Below are positions 768 to 13,950 of a stretch of DNA of 20,420 bases, in pieces. Each line of letters begins with the position of its first letter. Within the stretch, counting starts at the first letter, position 1. Under the pieces are notes generated by a model. It was not told where the DNA came from. It saw only the letters and a program-made list of their open reading frames with translations, and did no database searches. The stretch comes from a bacterium (GTDB lineage Bacteria; CG2-30-53-67; CG2-30-70-394): assembly GCA_024278555.1 (NCBI GenBank), contig JAJRSX010000039.1, positions 1 to 20,420 of the forward strand, read 5' to 3'. Made by a program: the position numbers and the translations under genes.

Positions 768-957
768 GGGCGCGCGGCGCGGGGCGCTTCGCGCGGGGGT
801 GGGGGATGGGGGAAGGAGGGCCGCCTGCGGCGGTCCATGAGATGTGGATCGACGTTCCCTGGCTACCTATTCAATAATCGCCGGTCGCAGGCCGGCACCA
901 GCCCGTCACCCCCCATCCCCCACCCCCCATCCCGGGCGAGCGAAGCGAGCCCCCACC
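765..957. repeat. G-rich inverted repeat between the DUF523 gene and murJ
   Basis: GGGGGTGGGGGATGGGGG at 795-812 is repeated as its exact reverse complement at 911-928, an 18-bp perfect match. Each arm is flanked by a small hairpin: GCGCTTCGCGC next to the left arm, GCGAGCGAAGCGAGC at 938-951 next to the right arm. The arms enclose about 100 bp of lower-GC DNA (813-910) with no gene. The right arm ends only a few bases before the murJ start, so it probably lies in the murJ leader. A third copy of the hairpin plus G-tract closes the window at 20389-20420. Four G-runs make a G-quadruplex possible. Confidence 0.75.
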
Positions 958-2544
958 ATGTCCCGTCCCGGCCTCCTGCGCTCCGTCGGGGTGATCAGCG
1001 GCGCGACCCTGGTGTCGCGCGTGGTCGGCTACCTGCGCGACATGCTGCTCGCCTACTACCTCGGCGCCGGGGTGGTGGCGGACGCCTTCTTCGTCGCCCA
1101 CCGGATCCCCAACTTCCTCCGCCGCCTGTTTGGCGAGGGGACCCTCACCGCCGCCTTTGTCCCGGTCCTCACCGAGCAGATCGCTGCCGGTGACCAGGAG
1201 GCGGCGCGCAACCTGATCCGCCGCCTCGCCGGCCTGCTCCTGGCCGCCTCCACCATGCTCACCCTCCTGGGGGGGGCGGCGGCGCCGTGGCTGGTGCGGA
1301 TCATGGCCCCCGGCTTCATCCACCAGCCGGAGAAGCTCCACCTCGCCATCGAGCTCACCCGGCTGATGTTCCCCTACGCCCTCTTCCTGGCGGTGGCGGC
1401 GCTGGCCATGGGGGTGCTGCAGGCCCACCGCCGCTTCCTCTGGCCGGCCCTGGCGCCCGCCGCCTACAACGTCTCCATCATCGCCGGGGCGGTGGTCCTC
1501 GCCGACCGGTGGCTCCCGCCGGCGCGGGCGATCGCCGTCGGGGTGGTGGTCGGGGGGCTTGCCCAGCTCCTCATCCAGCTCCCGGCGGTGCGCGAGGCCG
1601 GCTATCCGTTGCGCCCGGCGTGGCGTCCCGGAGACGCCACCGTGCGGCGGGTGGTGCGCCTCATGGGGCCGGGGATCCTCGGGCTGGCCATCCTGCAGGT
1701 GAACATCCTCATCTCCACCCTCCTCGCCTCCTTCCTCCCCAATGGCGCCGTCTCCTACCTCTACTACGCCAACCGGGTGATGGAGTTCCCCCTCGGCCTC
1801 TTCGGCATCGCCATCGCCACCGCCGCCCTCCCGGACCTCGCCGACCACGCGGCGCGCGGTGACACGGCGGGGCTGATCCGGGCGCTCAGGCGGGCGCTGC
1901 AGCTCTGCCTCCTGGTGATGATCCCGGCCGGGGTCGGCATGGCGGTCCTGGCGCGGCCGATCATTACCCTCCTCTTTGCCGGCGGCGCCTTCTCTGTTGC
2001 CGACATTGCCGGTACCCGCTCCGCCCTCATCGCCTTTGCCGCCGGGGTGTGGGCCTACGCCACGGTGAAGGTGGCAATCCAGGCGATGTTCGCCCAGCAG
2101 GACACCACCACCCCGGTGAAGACCGGCGCCGCCACCGTGGTGGTGGACATCATCCTGTCGTTGCTCCTCATGGGGCCGCTGGCCCACGCCGGCCTGGCCC
2201 TGGCTACCAGCCTCGCCGCCGCCTTCCAGTTCGCCCTCCTCATGTTCTTGCTGCGCCGTCGCCTCGGCCCCCTCGGCGGCCGCGCCCTGCTGGCCACCAC
2301 CACCCGGGCGCTGGCGGCGAGCGCGGTGATGGCGGCGGCGTGCGGCTTCGCCGACGGCCGCTGGCCCGCCCCCGGCTCTCGCCTCGGAGCTTTGGGCGAG
2401 GTCGCCGCGATCATCCCCGCGGCGGTGGTCGTCTACGGCGTCGTCCTCCTGCTCCTCGGCGGCGAGGAGCGCCGCTGGCTGGCACGCCTGTGGCGGGGAG
2501 GTCGCGGGGCCGACACCAGGGGTGTAGGCAAGGATGGGCGGTAG
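958..2544 (+). CDS. murJ: Lipid II flippase MurJ (MviN)
   Basis: 528 residues from ATG 958. The frame is open 38 codons further upstream, but that extension is low-complexity and lies in the G-rich repeat, while the MurJ family begins close to this Met (MSRPGLLRSVGVISGATLVSR). The family block follows: RVVGYLRDMLLAYYLGAG, VADAFFVAHRIPNFLRRLFGEG and AAFVPVL, with the basic residues that line the lipid II cavity. The rest is about 14 hydrophobic segments, and DTTTPVKTG is the conserved loop in the second half. It moves lipid-linked peptidoglycan precursor across the inner membrane. Length is normal (510-530). The stop TAG begins a GTAGGAG hairpin element. Confidence 0.95.
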   Translation: MSRPGLLRSVGVISGATLVSRVVGYLRDMLLAYYLGAGVVADAFFVAHRIPNFLRRLFGEGTLTAAFVPVLTEQIAAGDQEAARNLIRRLAGLLLAASTMLTLLGGAAAPWLVRIMAPGFIHQPEKLHLAIELTRLMFPYALFLAVAALAMGVLQAHRRFLWPALAPAAYNVSIIAGAVVLADRWLPPARAIAVGVVVGGLAQLLIQLPAVREAGYPLRPAWRPGDATVRRVVRLMGPGILGLAILQVNILISTLLASFLPNGAVSYLYYANRVMEFPLGLFGIAIATAALPDLADHAARGDTAGLIRALRRALQLCLLVMIPAGVGMAVLARPIITLLFAGGAFSVADIAGTRSALIAFAAGVWAYATVKVAIQAMFAQQDTTTPVKTGAATVVVDIILSLLLMGPLAHAGLALATSLAAAFQFALLMFLLRRRLGPLGGRALLATTTRALAASAVMAAACGFADGRWPAPGSRLGALGEVAAIIPAAVVVYGVVLLLLGGEERRWLARLWRGGRGADTRGVGKDGR

Positions 2545-5403: not shown

Positions 5404-5970
5404 GGCGTCACCGGTGCTGCAACACAGTGGGGCGCGGCCCGGAAGGCCAATTCATAGGCTGAGCCGCAAATGGGGCGCGAATGGACGCGAATGGTGGGCA
5501 GGGAAGGTGAGGTGTCACCGGTGCCCCCAACCGCTACGCAGCAGCCTGGAAGGCGATTTCACCACAGAGGCGCAGAGGGGTGGTGGGCCAGGGGGTAAGG
5601 CGCCATCGGTGGAGACAACCAGCGCGCAACGGCCCGGAAGGCGATTTTTTAGCCACGGAACCCACGGAAGGGCACGGAATGTGGGGCCTTCCGTTGGGTT
5701 GGATGAACAACCCGGCCCCCGTGTCTACTCGAAACACGGCAGGCGCCACCTCGTTCCCTTTCTCCCCGCCACGCTCCCTCGCCCCTTCCGTGTGCTTCCG
5801 TGGATTCCGTGGCGAATTTCCTTCCGGGTCGCAACGGCTCCTCGGCCGCACGCCTGGTGACGCCGTAGCTGTGAGGCCATGTCCCTCCGCGTCTTGGCGT
5901 CTCTGCGCGAGGCCCACCTTCAAGGTGGCGACGAAATCTCGTGGTCACCGCCGCTGACGCCTCACCGAGA
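5404..5970. repeat. Nested array of modular leader-plus-payload repeats (588-bp gene-free gap)
   Basis: Three copies of a 44-nt leader start at 5404, 5511 and 5599. Each begins GGYGYCAYCGGTG and ends with GCCYGGAAGGC exactly 33 nt later, without gaps. Each is followed by a different tandem motif: CGCGAATGGA-type units at 5465-5494, CACAGAGGCGCAGAGG at 5561-5579, and CCACGGAA-type units at 5653-5680. Two inverted copies close the array. The CACGGAA payload returns as ccttccgtgtgcttccgtgg at 5784-5803 and continues to 5813, with its leader at 5814-5864. The CAGAG-type payload returns at 5884-5912 with its leader at 5914-5961. The second unit therefore encloses the third as nested palindromes. 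No gene is visible in 5394-5981. Confidence 0.8.
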
Positions 5971-8924: not shown

Positions 8925-9240
8925 GGCAGGGGGGGCATCCACGAAGCCACACGAAGGGCGCTGCGCGCCGACACGAAGGGGGAGGCGGGGCGGTACTTCG
9001 GCGACGCGATCCACGAGGGGATCAGGCAGAAGAGCGGGGCCGCGCAGTGGCCGGTCTTCGTGTGCCTTCGTGGACAACCCAACCGACCGAAGGGCCGGGC
9101 CTCCATAAAGCCTCGTTCGAGACCCAAGCCCCCCTGCGCCTTGGCCTCTCCGCGCGAGATCCCCGGCGGATGATGATGGGGTCGCCGCCCTCATTGCCTT
9201 CGACTCCAGGGGAGGCCGTGATCGTCCGATCTGGGAAGCG
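8925..9240. repeat. CACGAAG-type palindrome with flanking fragments (429-bp gene-free gap)
   Basis: CCACGAAGCCACACGAAG at 8939-8956 is matched by CTTCGTGTGCCTTCGTGG at 9056-9073, its reverse complement at 17 of 18 positions. About 100 bp lies between, including GGCGCTGCGCGCC and one more ACACGAAGG. The loop-side sequence after the right arm (ACAACCCAACCGACCGAAGGGCC) resembles, in reverse, the centre of the 5404-5970 array (GGCCTTCCGTTGGGTTG). A solitary fragment at 9133-9160 resembles, in inverted orientation, the CAGAG-type payload. Apart from the rplU promoter, no gene is seen in 8825-9253. Confidence 0.65.
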
Positions 9241-9807: not shown

Positions 9808-9873
9808 GTAGACGGCGCCGACGGACGGTGGCCGCGGGCGGAATTCACCGCGGTGGTGTCGGTAGAATGGGCG

Positions 9874-11814
9874 ATGGCGCGTCCCTCCCCCCCGGAGCTG
9901 GCGGACATCCCGCACCGCCCCGGCATCTACCTGATGAAGGATGGCGACGGCGAGGTCCTCTACGTGGGCAAGGCGATCGACCTCGCCCGGCGGGTGCGCT
10001 CCTACTTCAGCCGCGGCGACCAGCCGGTGAAGACGCGCGCCCTGGTGGCGCGCATCGCCTCGGTGGAGACGATCATCGTCGAGAACGAGGTTGAGGCGCT
10101 GCTGCTGGAGTCGAACCTCATCAAGCGGTACCGGCCGCGCTACAACGTCGTCCTGCGCGACGACAAACAGTACCCGTACATCCGCCTGTCGGTGCAGGAG
10201 CCCTTCCCGCGCATCGACGTGGTACGCCGGGTCGCCGATGACGGCGCCCGCTACTACGGCCCCTTTGTCACCGGCACCGGGATCCACGCCACCGTGCGCC
10301 TGATCAATCGCACCTTCATGGTGCGCAAGTGCCGCAACCGCGAGTTCCGGATGAAGGAGCGGCCGTCGCTCCAGTTTCAGATCGGCCGCTGCTACTCGCC
10401 GTGCACCGGCCGGATCACCCCGGAGGCGTACCGCGAACGGGTGGTGGAGCCGGTGCGCGCCTTCCTCGACGGCCGCGACCGCACCCTCCTGCGCGACCTC
10501 ACCGGCCGGATGGAGCAGGCCGCGGCCGCGGAGCGGTTCGAGGAGGCAGCCCGCCTGCGCGACGCGATCCAGCGGATCGAGCGGCTCACCGCCCGCCAGG
10601 AGGTGGTCGACGTGCGCGGCGGCGATGCCGACTGCTTCGGGGTCCACCGGGAGGGGGAGACCACCGCGGTGACCCTGCTGGTGGTGCGCGCCGGGCGCCT
10701 CCAGGGGCGGCGGGACATCTTTCTGGAGGGGGAGGAGGGGGGCGAGGCGGAGCTCCTTGCCCAGGTGGTCCGCCAGCTCTACACCGCCGGCGCCCTGGTG
10801 CCGGAGACGGTCCTGGTGCCGATGGCCCTGCCCGAGCAGGCGGCGGTGGAGGGGTACCTCACCGCCCGCCGCGGCCGCCGCTGCCGGCTGTTGGTCCCCC
10901 AACGGGGCCACCGCGCCAAGCTCATCCGTCTCGCCCGGGCCAACGCCGCCGAGGCGTACGCGAGCCACCTGGCGCGCCGCACCCGCGCCACCGACCTCCT
11001 CGCCGACCTCAAGCTCCGCATGGGGCTCGGCCGTCTGCCGAAGCGTATCGAGTGCTTCGACATCTCCAACGTCTCCGGCGACCACGCGGTGGGCTCCATG
11101 GTGGTCTTCGAGGCGGGGCAGCCCCTCAAGCGCCACTACCGCCACTTCCGGGTCCGCGCGGCGGAGGGGCCGAACGACTTCGCGATGATGGCGGAGGTGA
11201 TCGAGCGCCGCTACGCCGGGGCGCTCGCCGACCGCCTGCCGTACCCCGACCTCATCCTCCTCGACGGCGGCCCGCCGCAGCTCGCCGCGGTGGCGCCGCT
11301 CCTTGCCGACATCGGTCTGGTCGGCCGCTGTGACCTCCTCGGGCTGGCCAAGGCGCGGTCGGTGGACGGCCAGGGGCGCGGGCGCGGCGAGGCTGCGAAG
11401 AGCCACGAGCGGCTGGTGCGCGCCGACGGTGGCGAGCCGCTCCTCCTCGCTCCCGACGACCCCCTCTGCCACCTCGTCGCCCGCATCCGCGACGAGGCCC
11501 ACCGCTTCGCCATCACCTACTACCGCAAGCTCCACGGCGACCGCCTGGTCGCCAGCGGCCTCGACGACTGCGCGGGCATCGGCCCGGCGCGCAAGGTGGC
11601 GTTGCTCAAACACTTCGGCTCCCTGGCCCGGGTGCGCACCGCCACCGTCGCGGAGCTCGCCGCCTGCCCGAAGATGACCACCCCGGCCGCCGAGGCGGTC
11701 TACCGCCATCTGCACCCGGCCAACGGCGAGGAGAAAGCCACGGAGGGCCAGGATGGCTCAACGCCGGGGCGCGAAGAACGGCCGACTGCACGTGGCCAGG
11801 AAGAACAGGGTTGA
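9874..11814 (+). CDS. uvrC: UvrABC excinuclease subunit C
   Basis: 646 residues from ATG 9874; GTG 9853 is an alternative. GIY-YIG nuclease domain: HRPGIYLMKD, EVLYVGKA, and NEVEALLLESNLIK with the metal-binding Glu. Next the cysteine region (C153, S165, C173, C177), a UVR motif with AAAAERFEEAARLRDAIQ, the RNase H-like nuclease (IECFDISNVSG, LLDGGPPQL, HRFAITYYRK) and a C-terminal HhH domain (GIGPARKVALLKHFGS). It makes both incisions around a UvrB-bound lesion. Odd: S165 replaces one cluster cysteine (TCG codon at 10366-10368). The last residues (QEEQG, stop) are encoded by CAGGAAGAA and CAGGGTTGA, part of a 9-bp tandem repeat. Confidence 0.97.
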   Translation: MARPSPPELADIPHRPGIYLMKDGDGEVLYVGKAIDLARRVRSYFSRGDQPVKTRALVARIASVETIIVENEVEALLLESNLIKRYRPRYNVVLRDDKQYPYIRLSVQEPFPRIDVVRRVADDGARYYGPFVTGTGIHATVRLINRTFMVRKCRNREFRMKERPSLQFQIGRCYSPCTGRITPEAYRERVVEPVRAFLDGRDRTLLRDLTGRMEQAAAAERFEEAARLRDAIQRIERLTARQEVVDVRGGDADCFGVHREGETTAVTLLVVRAGRLQGRRDIFLEGEEGGEAELLAQVVRQLYTAGALVPETVLVPMALPEQAAVEGYLTARRGRRCRLLVPQRGHRAKLIRLARANAAEAYASHLARRTRATDLLADLKLRMGLGRLPKRIECFDISNVSGDHAVGSMVVFEAGQPLKRHYRHFRVRAAEGPNDFAMMAEVIERRYAGALADRLPYPDLILLDGGPPQLAAVAPLLADIGLVGRCDLLGLAKARSVDGQGRGRGEAAKSHERLVRADGGEPLLLAPDDPLCHLVARIRDEAHRFAITYYRKLHGDRLVASGLDDCAGIGPARKVALLKHFGSLARVRTATVAELAACPKMTTPAAEAVYRHLHPANGEEKATEGQDGSTPGREERPTARGQEEQG

Positions 11815-12075
11815 CAGGATTGGGGGGGAGCTGGACCGGGGGGATTGCGTCGCCGGTGGTGAGCCGGGGGACGGCAGCGGCCTGGAAGGCGGGGGGGGAT
11901 CCGCAGATCCACGCAGATCTCCGCAGATCCTTACGGCCACGGAGACCGCCCGTCAGGGGCAACACCGTCGCCGCGGGAGTACCTGCGAGTCACAGCTTCC
12001 ACGGATGGGCATCCAAAAAGATCTGCGTTGATCTGCGCAGAGCTGCGGATAACCCAACCTGCCAGGTGGCACTGC
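11797..12075. repeat. CAGGATTGA 9-mers followed by a GCAGATC-type palindrome with leader
   Basis: Three 9-bp units, CAGGAAGAA, CAGGGTTGA and CAGGATTGG, occupy 11797-11823 across the uvrC stop. A leader like that of the 5404 array follows: GCGTCGCCGGTG at 11847 and GCCTGGAAGGC at 11880-11890. Its payload of 8- to 10-bp units is ATCCGCAG, ATCCACGCAG, ATCTCCGCAG at 11899-11930. The inverted arm at 12021-12050 reads on the minus strand ATCCGCAG, CTCTGCGCAG, ATCAACGCAG. Its leader has ACCTGGCAGGT (plus 12057-12067). Confidence 0.75.
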
Positions 12076-12570
12076 AATCCGGGAGATCGCGGCGGCCGCC
12101 GCAGCATGGGAACCACGGAGTTTTCCCGACCCTCGGGTGATCTCCACATAGGTGGGGGGGAGGGAGCCACGGGGTCACCCTGTGCCCCCCCTTCGAGGAT
12201 CAGCGGAAACCGCCTTCCAGGCTTGCACCGTGATCACCTCGTGACTCCCTCGACCCTGTTGGCGGTCTCCCCTCCCCCCGGGATCTTGCCCTCTTTCCGG
12301 TTGCCCATCGCCGGTCATGAGCTAAGGGCAGTCTCCATCTCTTGAGATGACGGCGTCGGTCGGCTGAAGCCGACCCTACGGTCTGGTAACCCTATCTTGT
12401 TTCCGCTGATCCCCTTCGTGCTCTTCGTGGCCCTCGTGGTTTTGTCCGGTGGAAGGGGGTTCCCCGGAGGGCAGCAGATGGAGCCGACGATCGTGGGGTA
12501 GCCCCATCGTCTTGACATGGGCGCCCCGACGAGGGGTGATGGGGCCGACTCGCAACTCGGAGGTGTGGCG
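12076..12570. repeat. Degenerate repeat remnants upstream of gmhA
   Basis: No gene is visible. GGGGTCACCCTGTGCCCCC at 12170-12188 resembles the start of the modular leader. An inverted GCCTGGAAGGC mini-hairpin lies at 12212-12222. GATCAGCGGAAAC at 12198-12210 is inverted at 12399-12411. The latter abuts inverted CCACGAAG-type units at 12412-12440. GTAGGGTCGGCTTCAGCC on the minus strand (12362-12379) heads a perfect GTCGGC-TTCA-GCCGAC hairpin at 12359-12374. At 12486-12511 GACGAT pairs with ATCGTC around GGGG/CCCC, a strong hairpin, followed by TTGACA at 12512; no good -10 follows. Confidence 0.6.
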
Positions 12571-13149
12571 GTGGACGACTCGGTGGAGGCGGTGCGACGG
12601 CAGCTTCTCGATGGGGCGCGGCTGCGGGAACAGGTGGCGGCGGAGCTCGCGGAGCCGATCGCGGCGGTGGCGGAGCGGCTCACGGTCTGCCTGCGCGACG
12701 GCCACAAGGTGCTCCTGTGCGGCAACGGCGGCTCGGCCGCGGACGCCCAGCACATCGCCGCCGAGCTGGTCGGCCGCTACACCCGCGAGCGGCCGGGCTG
12801 GCCGGCGATCGCCCTCACCACCGACACCTCGGCCCTGACCGCCATCGGCAACGACTACGGCTATGACCGCATCTTCGACCGCCAGGTGGAGGCCCTGGGC
12901 CGGGAGGGCGACGTGCTCATCGGGATCTCCACCAGCGGCAACTCCCCCAATGTCCTGGCCGCGGTCGTGCGGGCGCGGTCTCAAGGGCTGTACACCGTGG
13001 GCTTCGCCGGCCGCGACGGCGGCCACCTCGCCAGCGCCTGCGACCGCTGCCTCACCATCCCCCACGCCGAGACCGCACGCATCCAGGAGCTGCACATCAC
13101 CCTCGGCCACATCCTCTGCGACCTGGTGGAGGATGCCCTTACCGGGTGA
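12571..13149 (+). CDS. gmhA: Sedoheptulose-7-phosphate isomerase (phosphoheptose isomerase)
   Basis: 192 residues from GTG 12571, chosen because GGAGGT lies 6 nt upstream (12559-12564) and because this start gives the E. coli length and numbering. It is a single SIS domain: [21 protein letters not shown] (48-68), [10 protein letters not shown], and [10 protein letters not shown] (118-127). The catalytic/zinc residues H61, E65, Q172 and H180 all fall at the E. coli positions. It converts sedoheptulose 7-phosphate to D-glycero-D-manno-heptose 7-phosphate, the first step towards the LPS core heptose, in the cytosol. It stands alone; hldE and gmhB are not in the window. It converges on the FmdE-like gene. 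Confidence 0.96.
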
Positions 13150-13187
13150 GTGAGGGGTGTTCCGGGGCTACGGCCGCCCGGGGCCGC

Positions 13188-13235
13188 GGTCCGCTTTTCC
13201 GCAGTGGACCGGGCCAAAGCCCGACAGACTCCTAG
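13188..13235. terminator. Hairpins between convergent gmhA and the FmdE-like gene
   Basis: GGTCCGC and GCAGTGGACC flank TTTTCC at 13189-13211, and CGGGCCAAAGCCCG (13209-13222) forms a 5-bp stem with a 4-nt loop. On the minus strand the second reads TAGGAGTCTGTCGGGC, beginning at the stop of the FmdE-like gene. No long U-tract follows, so a termination role is inference from position between convergent genes. Confidence 0.4.
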
Positions 13236-13840
13236 GCCACATCCACGGTGATCAGGCGCGGGTCATCGGCGTGGTCGCAGAGGATCGCCTCGACGCGACC
13301 CTGCCAGAGGCGGCGGAAGCGACCCGCCTCCTCCTCGGTGGCGAGGCCGGCGAGCTGCCTCTGGAGAAGGGGCATCATCTCGGGGTCCGGGGGGACGACC
13401 CCCGGGTCGTAGCGGACCGAGGCGCTCTTGCCCGTGTCCCTCCGGGTGAATCGGACCGGCGCGGCAGAGGCGTTGCCGAAGGAGAGGAGGCGGCGCCGGT
13501 CGAAGCGGTCGCCGATGCCGTGGAAGCCGCCATCGGCGGCGGCACCGGTGATCAGCGACAGGACATTCGCCACCACCCCACACACCCCCTCTTCGATCGG
13601 CTGCCGCATCCGCACCTCGATCTCGCCCCGGGTCGGGAGGTCGTCGCCGTAGAGCGCCTCCAGACCGCGGGTGGCCATGAGGAAGGCGCCGGCCACGGTC
13701 GGGCACGAGTGGCCCGCCAGGCGCACCGCGTCGAGGTAGCGCACCTCCACCACGCCGCCCTTCAGGGCGCCGAGAAAGTCGGCGAGGGGGTCGCGCAGGC
13801 GGATCGGGGCGACGCGGTCGTAGAAGGCGGGGTAGTCCAT
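13232..13840 (-). CDS. FmdE-like domain protein, function unknown
   Basis: 202 residues from ATG 13840. The recognisable core is LAGHSCPTVAGAFLMA (H44, C46), like the metal-binding GHxCPG block of FmdE, the protein encoded with molybdenum formylmethanofuran dehydrogenase. Next come EIEVRMRQPIEEGVCGVVAN, LITGAAADGGFHGIGDRFDRR and a C-terminal LWQGRVEAILCDH. Proteobacterial proteins of this type are about 200 residues and stand outside methanogenesis operons; their role is unknown. No signal peptide or membrane helix. It is divergent from the deoxyhypusine-synthase-like gene, with 110 bp between them. The stop TAG begins TAGGAGTCTG with a CGGGC-TTTG-GCCCG hairpin. Confidence 0.6.
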   Translation of the reverse strand: MDYPAFYDRVAPIRLRDPLADFLGALKGGVVEVRYLDAVRLAGHSCPTVAGAFLMATRGLEALYGDDLPTRGEIEVRMRQPIEEGVCGVVANVLSLITGAAADGGFHGIGDRFDRRRLLSFGNASAAPVRFTRRDTGKSASVRYDPGVVPPDPEMMPLLQRQLAGLATEEEAGRFRRLWQGRVEAILCDHADDPRLITVDVA

Positions 13841-13861
13841 GGGGAGAGTCTGGAGGGGGGA

Positions 13862-13882
13862 GGGGGTGGCGACGTCACCCCC
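13862..13882. promoter_or_regulatory. Dyad in the divergent intergenic region
   Basis: GGGGGTG at 13862-13868 and CACCCCC at 13876-13882 form a 7-bp stem with a 7-nt loop. On the minus strand it reads GTAGGGGGTGACG, so it may be another GTAGG-type repeat, not an operator. It sits between two divergent starts, so a regulatory role cannot be excluded. Confidence 0.4.
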
Positions 13883-13897
13883 TACGTACCATGATCC

Positions 13898-13939
13898 AGC
13901 GAACAGCGAACAGCGAACAGCTGAAGGCTGAAAGCCAAC
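13898..13939 (+). repeat. Six tandem heptamers before the deoxyhypusine-synthase-like gene
   Basis: AGCGAAC three times (13898-13918), then AGCTGAA, GGCTGAA and AGCCAAC, without gaps, 42 bp in all. The array ends 11 bp before the chosen ATG 13951, in the position of the ribosome-binding site, and no GGAGG-like site is visible beside it. Confidence 0.8.
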
Positions 13940-13950
13940 CCCTCACTCCC

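Follow-up and report, generated by a model that had tools for sequence, protein, structure and literature searches.

Inverted arrays of short tandem units in a bacterial operon gap: probable gene-less shells of very small mobile elements with GxxExxY or S23 genes

The clusters of short tandem units in the analysed window are very probably gene-less, MITE-like shells of widespread and very small mobile elements, which carry a GxxExxY or an S23 gene when they are full. The window is the whole stretch of DNA that was analysed (20,420 nucleotides), an entire 20.4-kb contig (C8) of a draft assembly of 3.06 Mb in 211 contigs. Its gene order includes murJ, a TIGR03623 repair gene, proB, obgE, a response regulator, uvrC (9853-11814), gmhA, and a GSU2086-family gene. 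The sampled genome is GC-rich and full of spurious open frames. The features found in the window are collected in Table 1.

An insertion between uvrC and gmhA

In G001, the only same-genus genome available for comparison, uvrC adjoins gmhA with 47 bp from stop to start, versus about 750 bp in the window, and the genes are 84-85% identical in DNA. Judged from this alignment, about 700 bp of the gap (roughly 11842-12555) is an insertion. No target duplication is readable at the site, where the relative is about 84% identical in the flanking genes. Searches of the gap gave no Rfam match and no tRNA match.

The inserted stretch contains a 136-bp fold-back element made of three GCAGATC units (starting at 11903, 11913, and 11923), a spacer, two exact inverted units (GATCTGC at 12020 and 12030), and a degenerate third. 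Among 500 dinucleotide shuffles of the 714-bp gap, none matched the tandem 7-mer count and none gave any folded array. In a 166-nt segment with the GCAGATC units, the arms pair as three 8-bp helices in matching register, with internal loops of 2 nt between them (z-scores of -5.2 as RNA and -5.0 as DNA). Since the insertion has no GxxExxY or S23 ORF, the GCAGATC element is a shell only; both genes are also absent from the whole window. The shell belongs to the class defined by inverted arrays of short units, and like a MITE it is gene-less, has inverted ends, and its syntenic site is empty in G001. The operon gap as a whole would be a pile-up of this shell, which is of the GxxExxY type, a CACGAAG shell fragment, two leader copies, and a REP.

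Table 1. Repeat features of the window, with positions counted from its first nucleotide (RC, reverse complement)
Position	Strand	Feature	Basis
890-964	.	84% match to the right-arm region of the S23-bearing element G000:C165	
5436-5920	.	Layered cluster: CGCGAATGGA array, ACAGAGG array, and CACGGAA shell (5653-5812), with a leader for each	
8940-9072	.	CACGAAG shell with inverted arms	
11842-12555 (limits approximate)	.	Inserted stretch, uvrC to gmhA	G001 comparison
11847-11892	+	Leader repeat GCGTCGCCGGTG...GGCCTGGAAGGCGG, dispersed in the genome ahead of many array types	Genome pattern counts
11900-11931	+	Left arm TCCGCAGATCCACGCAGATCTCCGCAGATCC, 3 units, period 10	Array search, shuffles
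11932-12017	.	Centre of the GCAGATC shell, without a recognised long ORF	ORF inspection
12018-12052	-	Right arm, inverted GCAGATC units (2 exact, 1 degenerate), pairs with 11900-11931	Inverted-repeat search, folding
12197-12280	-	Second leader type, inverted (RC: GGGTCGAGGGAGTCACGAGGTGATCACGGTGCAAGCCTGGAAGGCGGTTTCCGCTGATCC); also precedes CACAGAG shells in L045 and L054	
12358-12380	-	REP-like hairpin (RC: CGTAGGGTCGGCTTCAGCCGACC), 9 copies per 0.88 Mb	
12399-12412	+	GTTTCCGCTGATCC, exact inverted partner of 12197-12210	
12414-12440	-	One-sided arm (RC: CCACGAGGGCCACGAAGAGCACGAAG), CACGAAG, GxxExxY-type units	
13897-13921	+	CAGCGAA heptamer array, one-sided, period 7, S23-type	

Much of what a preliminary description had read from the letters was recovered. 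The GCAGATC-type units with an inverted set, their spacing of 8-10 bp, the leader words at 11847 and 11880, and the clusters at 5404-5970 and 8939-9073 (both inverted) are all real, as are the heptamers at 13898, which are one-sided. The arm placed at 12412-12440 is of the CACGAAG type, but it is one-sided and lies on the minus strand; a partner array was sought nearby and none was found. A supposed CAGGATTGA 9-mer array had to be dropped. CAGGATTG is present once only (11815), so there is no such array in the window, and because G001 has a matching TAGGATTG at the corresponding position, the word belongs to the old gap. One of three proposed payload types is thus no array, and the term itself is misleading: the arrays are element ends, and the payload, if any, is a GxxExxY or an S23 gene.

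The gap between gmhA and the GSU2086-family gene (window 13140-13950) is likewise about 0.75 kb longer than in G001, having gained a reverse-strand ORF (13232-13840) and the CAGCGAA heptamers. The ORF has no NCBIfam match; by eye its product appears similar to formylmethanofuran dehydrogenase subunit E. CCGACAGACTCCTAG (window 13221-13235) is another dispersed word, with 8 copies per 0.88 Mb when one ambiguity is allowed, and in G001 it stands at the end of uvrC.

Shells across the sampled genome

Folded arrays were searched for blindly, as a 7-mer repeated at 7-12 bp whose reverse complement is also repeated within 500 bp. The genome sample consisted of 0.88 Mb of stretches, with a shuffle control on 0.30 Mb. 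The whole sample yielded 43 folded arrays, a few of which look coding or of a different, RAYT-like type (CTTGCAA); the control portion yielded 14, versus 0.4 in 3-mer shuffles. Shell units include CACGGAA, CACGAAG, CACGAAA, CACAGAG, CGCAAAG, CGCAGAG, CATGAAG, GTAGAAA, GTAGGGA, TCAGCGG, and GCAGATC, the last of which was found by pattern search in the window only. Read from outside to inside, nearly all arms have the same purine-rich direction. The CACGGAA shells (about 158 bp, including the one in the layered cluster of the window) form a family with a common centre in unrelated surroundings, and this centre can point either way with respect to the repeats that flank it. In one locus (L037) three shells are nested, CACGAAG[CGCAAAG[CACGGAA]]. 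Inverted partners are thus regularly present, which does not fit random drift, and together with the G001 comparison the census bears out the earlier reading of modular inserts with inverted short units in otherwise syntenic gaps.

The leader repeat, GGCGTCACCGGTG...GGCC[CT]GGAAGGC, has 29 core copies in 0.88 Mb and stands before many different arrays; it abuts varied shells in L007, L009, L016, L026, L032, L045, L051, L056, and the window. The CACAGAG shells are preceded by a second leader type. Elements of 65 bp (CTTGCAAACTTGCAAGTTTG...) are found at L056:11345, L063:5148, L115:19802, L120:4380, and L123:4693, some of them with GGGGTCAGG-type ends like those of the RAYT gene at C27.

Shells with CACAGAG and GTAGAAA units but no gene have ends in common with GxxExxY (C142, C116) and S23 (C210) elements of the same genome, at about 84-100% over 26-45 nt. 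A candidate autonomous partner with the same ends is therefore seen for these two unit types. Pattern searches of this genome found no gene-bearing copy with GCAGATC arms and none with CACGGAA arms.

The genome also encodes four RAYT (Y1) transposases and one REP lies inside the cluster of the uvrC-gmhA gap, so REP-type elements mobilised by RAYT were considered as the identity of the shells. The ends of the RAYT genes differ (GGGGTCAGG..., hairpins), with tandem arrays at 1 of 11 only, and the S23 element described below duplicates its target, unlike Y1 elements of the IS200/IS605 type, which are not known to do so. RAYT was rejected as the mover on account of the different ends around Y1 transposase genes, and this origin of the shells is highly improbable.

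Two gene families between the arms

Among the matches listed, CCACGRARNNCACGRARNNCACGRAR occurs in genomes of named species of Pseudomonadota, Desulfobacterota, Planctomycetota, Verrucomicrobiota, Chloroflexota, Acidobacteriota, Spirochaetota, and Cloacimonadota, and in one archaeal assembly. About 2 matches are expected by chance in uniform sequence (own estimate). An inverted partner lies within 500 bp in 46 of 99 array places among the matches listed, and in L132 a GxxExxY frame begins directly after the array. Family searches found GxxExxY (PF13366) and S23/IVP (PF05635) genes in this and other genomes; one S23 record search used a generic family-like query sequence, only for locating records.

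For each of these genes the left-hand 250 nt were compared with the reverse-complemented right-hand 250 nt, with 60 shuffles per gene. All 60 shuffles were beaten at 31/38 GxxExxY genes and 31/38 S23 genes, versus 2/22 in the uvrC control (Fisher P = 5e-8 each). In full versions the inverted arrays tightly bracket one gene. Arm period varies with the gene family: a period of 7 was detected in 24/31 S23 elements and in 2/31 GxxExxY elements (P = 1e-8). GxxExxY arms have periods of 8-11 bp and units such as CACAGAG, CGCAGAG, CACGGAG, CACAAAG, and GCAGATT. The unit type of the window shell is represented at genes elsewhere by GCAGATT arms of GxxExxY genes in G041, G055, G147, and G186 (same orientation as the GCAGATC of the window), and in G136. 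The G136 genome alone has 10 GxxExxY elements of 416-477 bp with largely different units. The suggestion that a near-helical period helps a protein bind one DNA face is unsupported, since sister arrays have a 7-bp period and what the arrays share is that their two arms are complementary.

Across 193 genomes, GxxExxY genes were found in 24 of the 29 enriched for 10-bp arrays versus 24 of the 164 others (OR 28, P = 7e-13; P = 7e-11 with the genome's own class left out). An association of 10-bp arrays with S23 genes was tried and rejected, as the effect vanishes after accounting for GxxExxY in the same genomes. No GxxExxY was found in phage records.

Three side observations were made in these genomes. 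Several GxxExxY genes and fragments are clustered within about 40 kb in G147:C1:784000-812000 (L346, L347). Predicted proteins in L303, L263, and L309 begin with translated array DNA (PQRAQRNAEE, PQRHRGHRE, PRISQIDAD), which gives rise to annotation errors. In the uvrC genes of G004-G007 (L066-L068, L071), the UvrC matches in family f2 hold in-frame TGA codons.

Insertion of S23 elements

Plasmids of Nostocales provide filled and empty versions of the same site. An S23 element is present in Trichormus variabilis (L409) and Scytonema (L413) and absent in Nostoc linckia and Tolypothrix (L411, L412), with flanks 98-99% identical. The insertion in L409 measures 428 bp and consists of the 423-bp element and a second copy of GTAAT, a 5-bp target duplication; this is the one S23 site at which a clean duplication was read. 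A further filled/empty pair has a TTCTA duplication, possibly partly array sequence. In the neighbouring gap another S23 element, also part of a filled/empty pair, has TAATG/TTATG (4/5 match) at its ends, and the fourth case is a 408-bp insertion whose junction is not clean. These comparisons demonstrate that the S23 type is mobile. A decayed copy was detected in Nostoc C052 (L414), and gene-less shells of the Nostocales S23 family (170-202 bp) stand at three other places.

The S23 insertion sites lie between stop and start of mostly co-directional neighbours, e.g. cas6/cas4 of type I-D CRISPR, radA and its neighbour, and an iron-sulfur gene/sufB. Such junctions probably serve as sites because an insert there does little harm. 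The S23 genes of L407 and L408, which sit in type I-D CRISPR loci with cas6 on one side and cas4 on the other, have long heptamer arms, and related plasmids are without them.

GxxExxY elements are presumably mobile as well and would move like S23 elements. At three sites in the G136 genus no clean empty site for a GxxExxY element was found; other elements, remnants, or conserved copies stand there. In this genus a single operon gap is occupied differently in four species: by a GxxExxY element in one, by S23-type genes in two others, and by a hybrid remnant in the last. Duplications have left little trace at the flanks of old elements (GxxExxY P = 0.018, S23 P = 0.57).

These insertions bear on two explanations that need no element. 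Arrays might be regulatory or RNA-processing hairpins formed in place (terminators, RNase III sites, protein-binding arrays), as their strong folding and location in operon gaps would suggest; the cited passages of PMC4679880 discuss heptamer arrays as regulatory, and those of PMC4692102 report Xanthomonas arrays as not linked to mobile elements. Hairpins of this kind would not account for the insertion relative to G001, the nested copies, the shared-centre families at unrelated sites, or the clean S23-type insertion with a target duplication, and this explanation is improbable. Replication slippage could likewise grow an array and template switching could supply its inverted arm. Unit number does vary, and the two arms of an orthologous element drift together (CACCAAG in G136, CACAAAG/CACTAAG in G195), so slippage may maintain the arms. 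As an origin of the arrays it is very improbable, given that the same units recur across phyla and that gene and arms insert as a unit.

Encoded proteins and a possible mechanism

The genome's own GxxExxY protein matches TIGR04256 and PF13366. Across 25 GxxExxY sequences the G, E, Y, D, ExK, and QxxxY positions vary little or not at all: E27, E77, K79, Q91, and Y95 are invariant and D67 is at least 90% conserved. The AlphaFold2 model (pLDDT 95.5) has Cas4 SSO0001 as its best Foldseek match in the PDB, with a probability of 1.00 but an E-value of 2e-3 and a TM-score of about 0.5, followed by AdnA, an alkaline exonuclease, RecE, and lambda exonuclease. By modelled fold and catalytic motif, GxxExxY is a putative minimal RecB/Cas4-like PD-(D/E)XK nuclease; the Cas4-like fold suggests a role in end processing of single strands. 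The own-genome S23 protein is homologous to Xcc0516 (2gsc, E-value 8e-24), and by this homology S23/IVP is a four-helix-bundle protein. Neither is a recognised transposase. In orthologous pairs dN/dS is 0.13 for GxxExxY (dS 1.5) and 0.09 for S23, and on these values both genes are under purifying selection.

Three points are established: gene and arms are found together, the S23 element enters its site in one piece and duplicates 5 bp of the target, and shells have the same ends as copies with a gene. A full element is about 0.4-0.6 kb long, with a left arm of at least 3 short tandem units, one small gene across the element, and an inverted array as the right arm; GxxExxY genes go with 8-11 bp units and S23/IVP genes with 7-bp units. 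The arms may pair, on a single strand or in RNA, into an interrupted hairpin or binding platform recognised by the encoded protein. That protein, alone or with a further partner, would bring about cutting and joining at AT-rich stop/start junctions. Shells would be copies that have kept the ends without the gene and are mobilised in trans.

It is possible that these are autonomous transposons of a new kind, each with a single encoded protein (the 127-residue Cas4-like nuclease or the four-helix-bundle S23 protein) that would recognise the inverted tandem arms of its own element and promote integration and a short target duplication; no transposase of the DDE, serine, tyrosine, or HUH class would take part. 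It is a serious possibility that GxxExxY and S23 are cargo or helpers and that an unlinked transposase or reverse transcriptase does the moving. The element is without a transposase, its target duplication implies a staggered cut, and S23 is homologous to Avd, the reverse transcriptase partner of diversity-generating retroelements (PMC10053308). The covariation of the arms with the gene family (period 7 versus 8-11) points the other way, as it suggests that the encoded protein reads the arms. Because S23 shares its fold with Avd, the proposed elements may move by an RNA-mediated route.

Comparison with known systems

In the open literature, with subscription papers and preprints outside the scope, no paper was found that connects these arrays with S23 or GxxExxY genes or demonstrates that they insert, and the exact array strings had no match; priority is thus not certain. 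The passages found on GxxExxY in this literature mention nothing on mobility.

Intergenic elements of this kind resemble MITEs in being short, gene-less, and present in many copies with inverted ends, some of which are shared with gene-bearing elements of the same genome. They differ from MITEs in that the ends are inverted arrays of short tandem units and the gene-bearing partner is without a known transposase. Eukaryotic foldback elements also have inverted ends of short tandem repeats; the present elements are far smaller, bacterial, and have unrelated genes. One-gene elements of about 0.4-0.6 kb would rank among the smallest gene-carrying mobile elements.

Dispersed intergenic tandem heptamers are known as TAACTGA in Beggiatoaceae (PMC4679880), GGGAATC in Xanthomonas (PMC4692102), and the cyanobacterial STRR; for GGGAATC, 70-75 pairs in inverted orientation are reported (PMC4692102). 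The passages cited from these two papers describe the arrays without a link to S23 genes or insertion, whereas in the present elements heptamer arrays form the arms on both sides of S23 genes. The GCAGATC units of the window, with a period of 10, are unlike the known tandem 7-mers. The proposed elements offer one explanation for intergenic repeats lacking a mechanism, both the heptamers of cyanobacteria, Beggiatoaceae, and Xanthomonas and the CACGAAG/CACAGAG/GCAGATT words of many phyla. They also give a likely mobility role to two orphan families, GxxExxY and S23/IVP, and explain why predicted GxxExxY proteins can have spurious extensions at the N-terminus (PQRAQR, HRGHRE).

Close parallels are also found in the intervening sequences of 23S rRNA. 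These selfish elements contain an S23 ORF, form a stem at their ends, and are suspected to be mobile; that of Coxiella burnetii is 428 nt long (PMC4990558). The PF05635 gene family, the similar size, and terminal inverted repeats forming a stem are shared with them. The window shell lies between uvrC and gmhA, not inside an rRNA gene, and has no Rfam match, so it is not itself such a sequence. By contrast, the elements described here are found in intergenic DNA, operon gaps included, their arms are tandem arrays, and they show a target duplication; the class also comprises a second gene family and shells that lack a gene. Since ends and empty sites are now defined, the old suspicion of mobility in 23S rRNA intervening sequences becomes directly testable.
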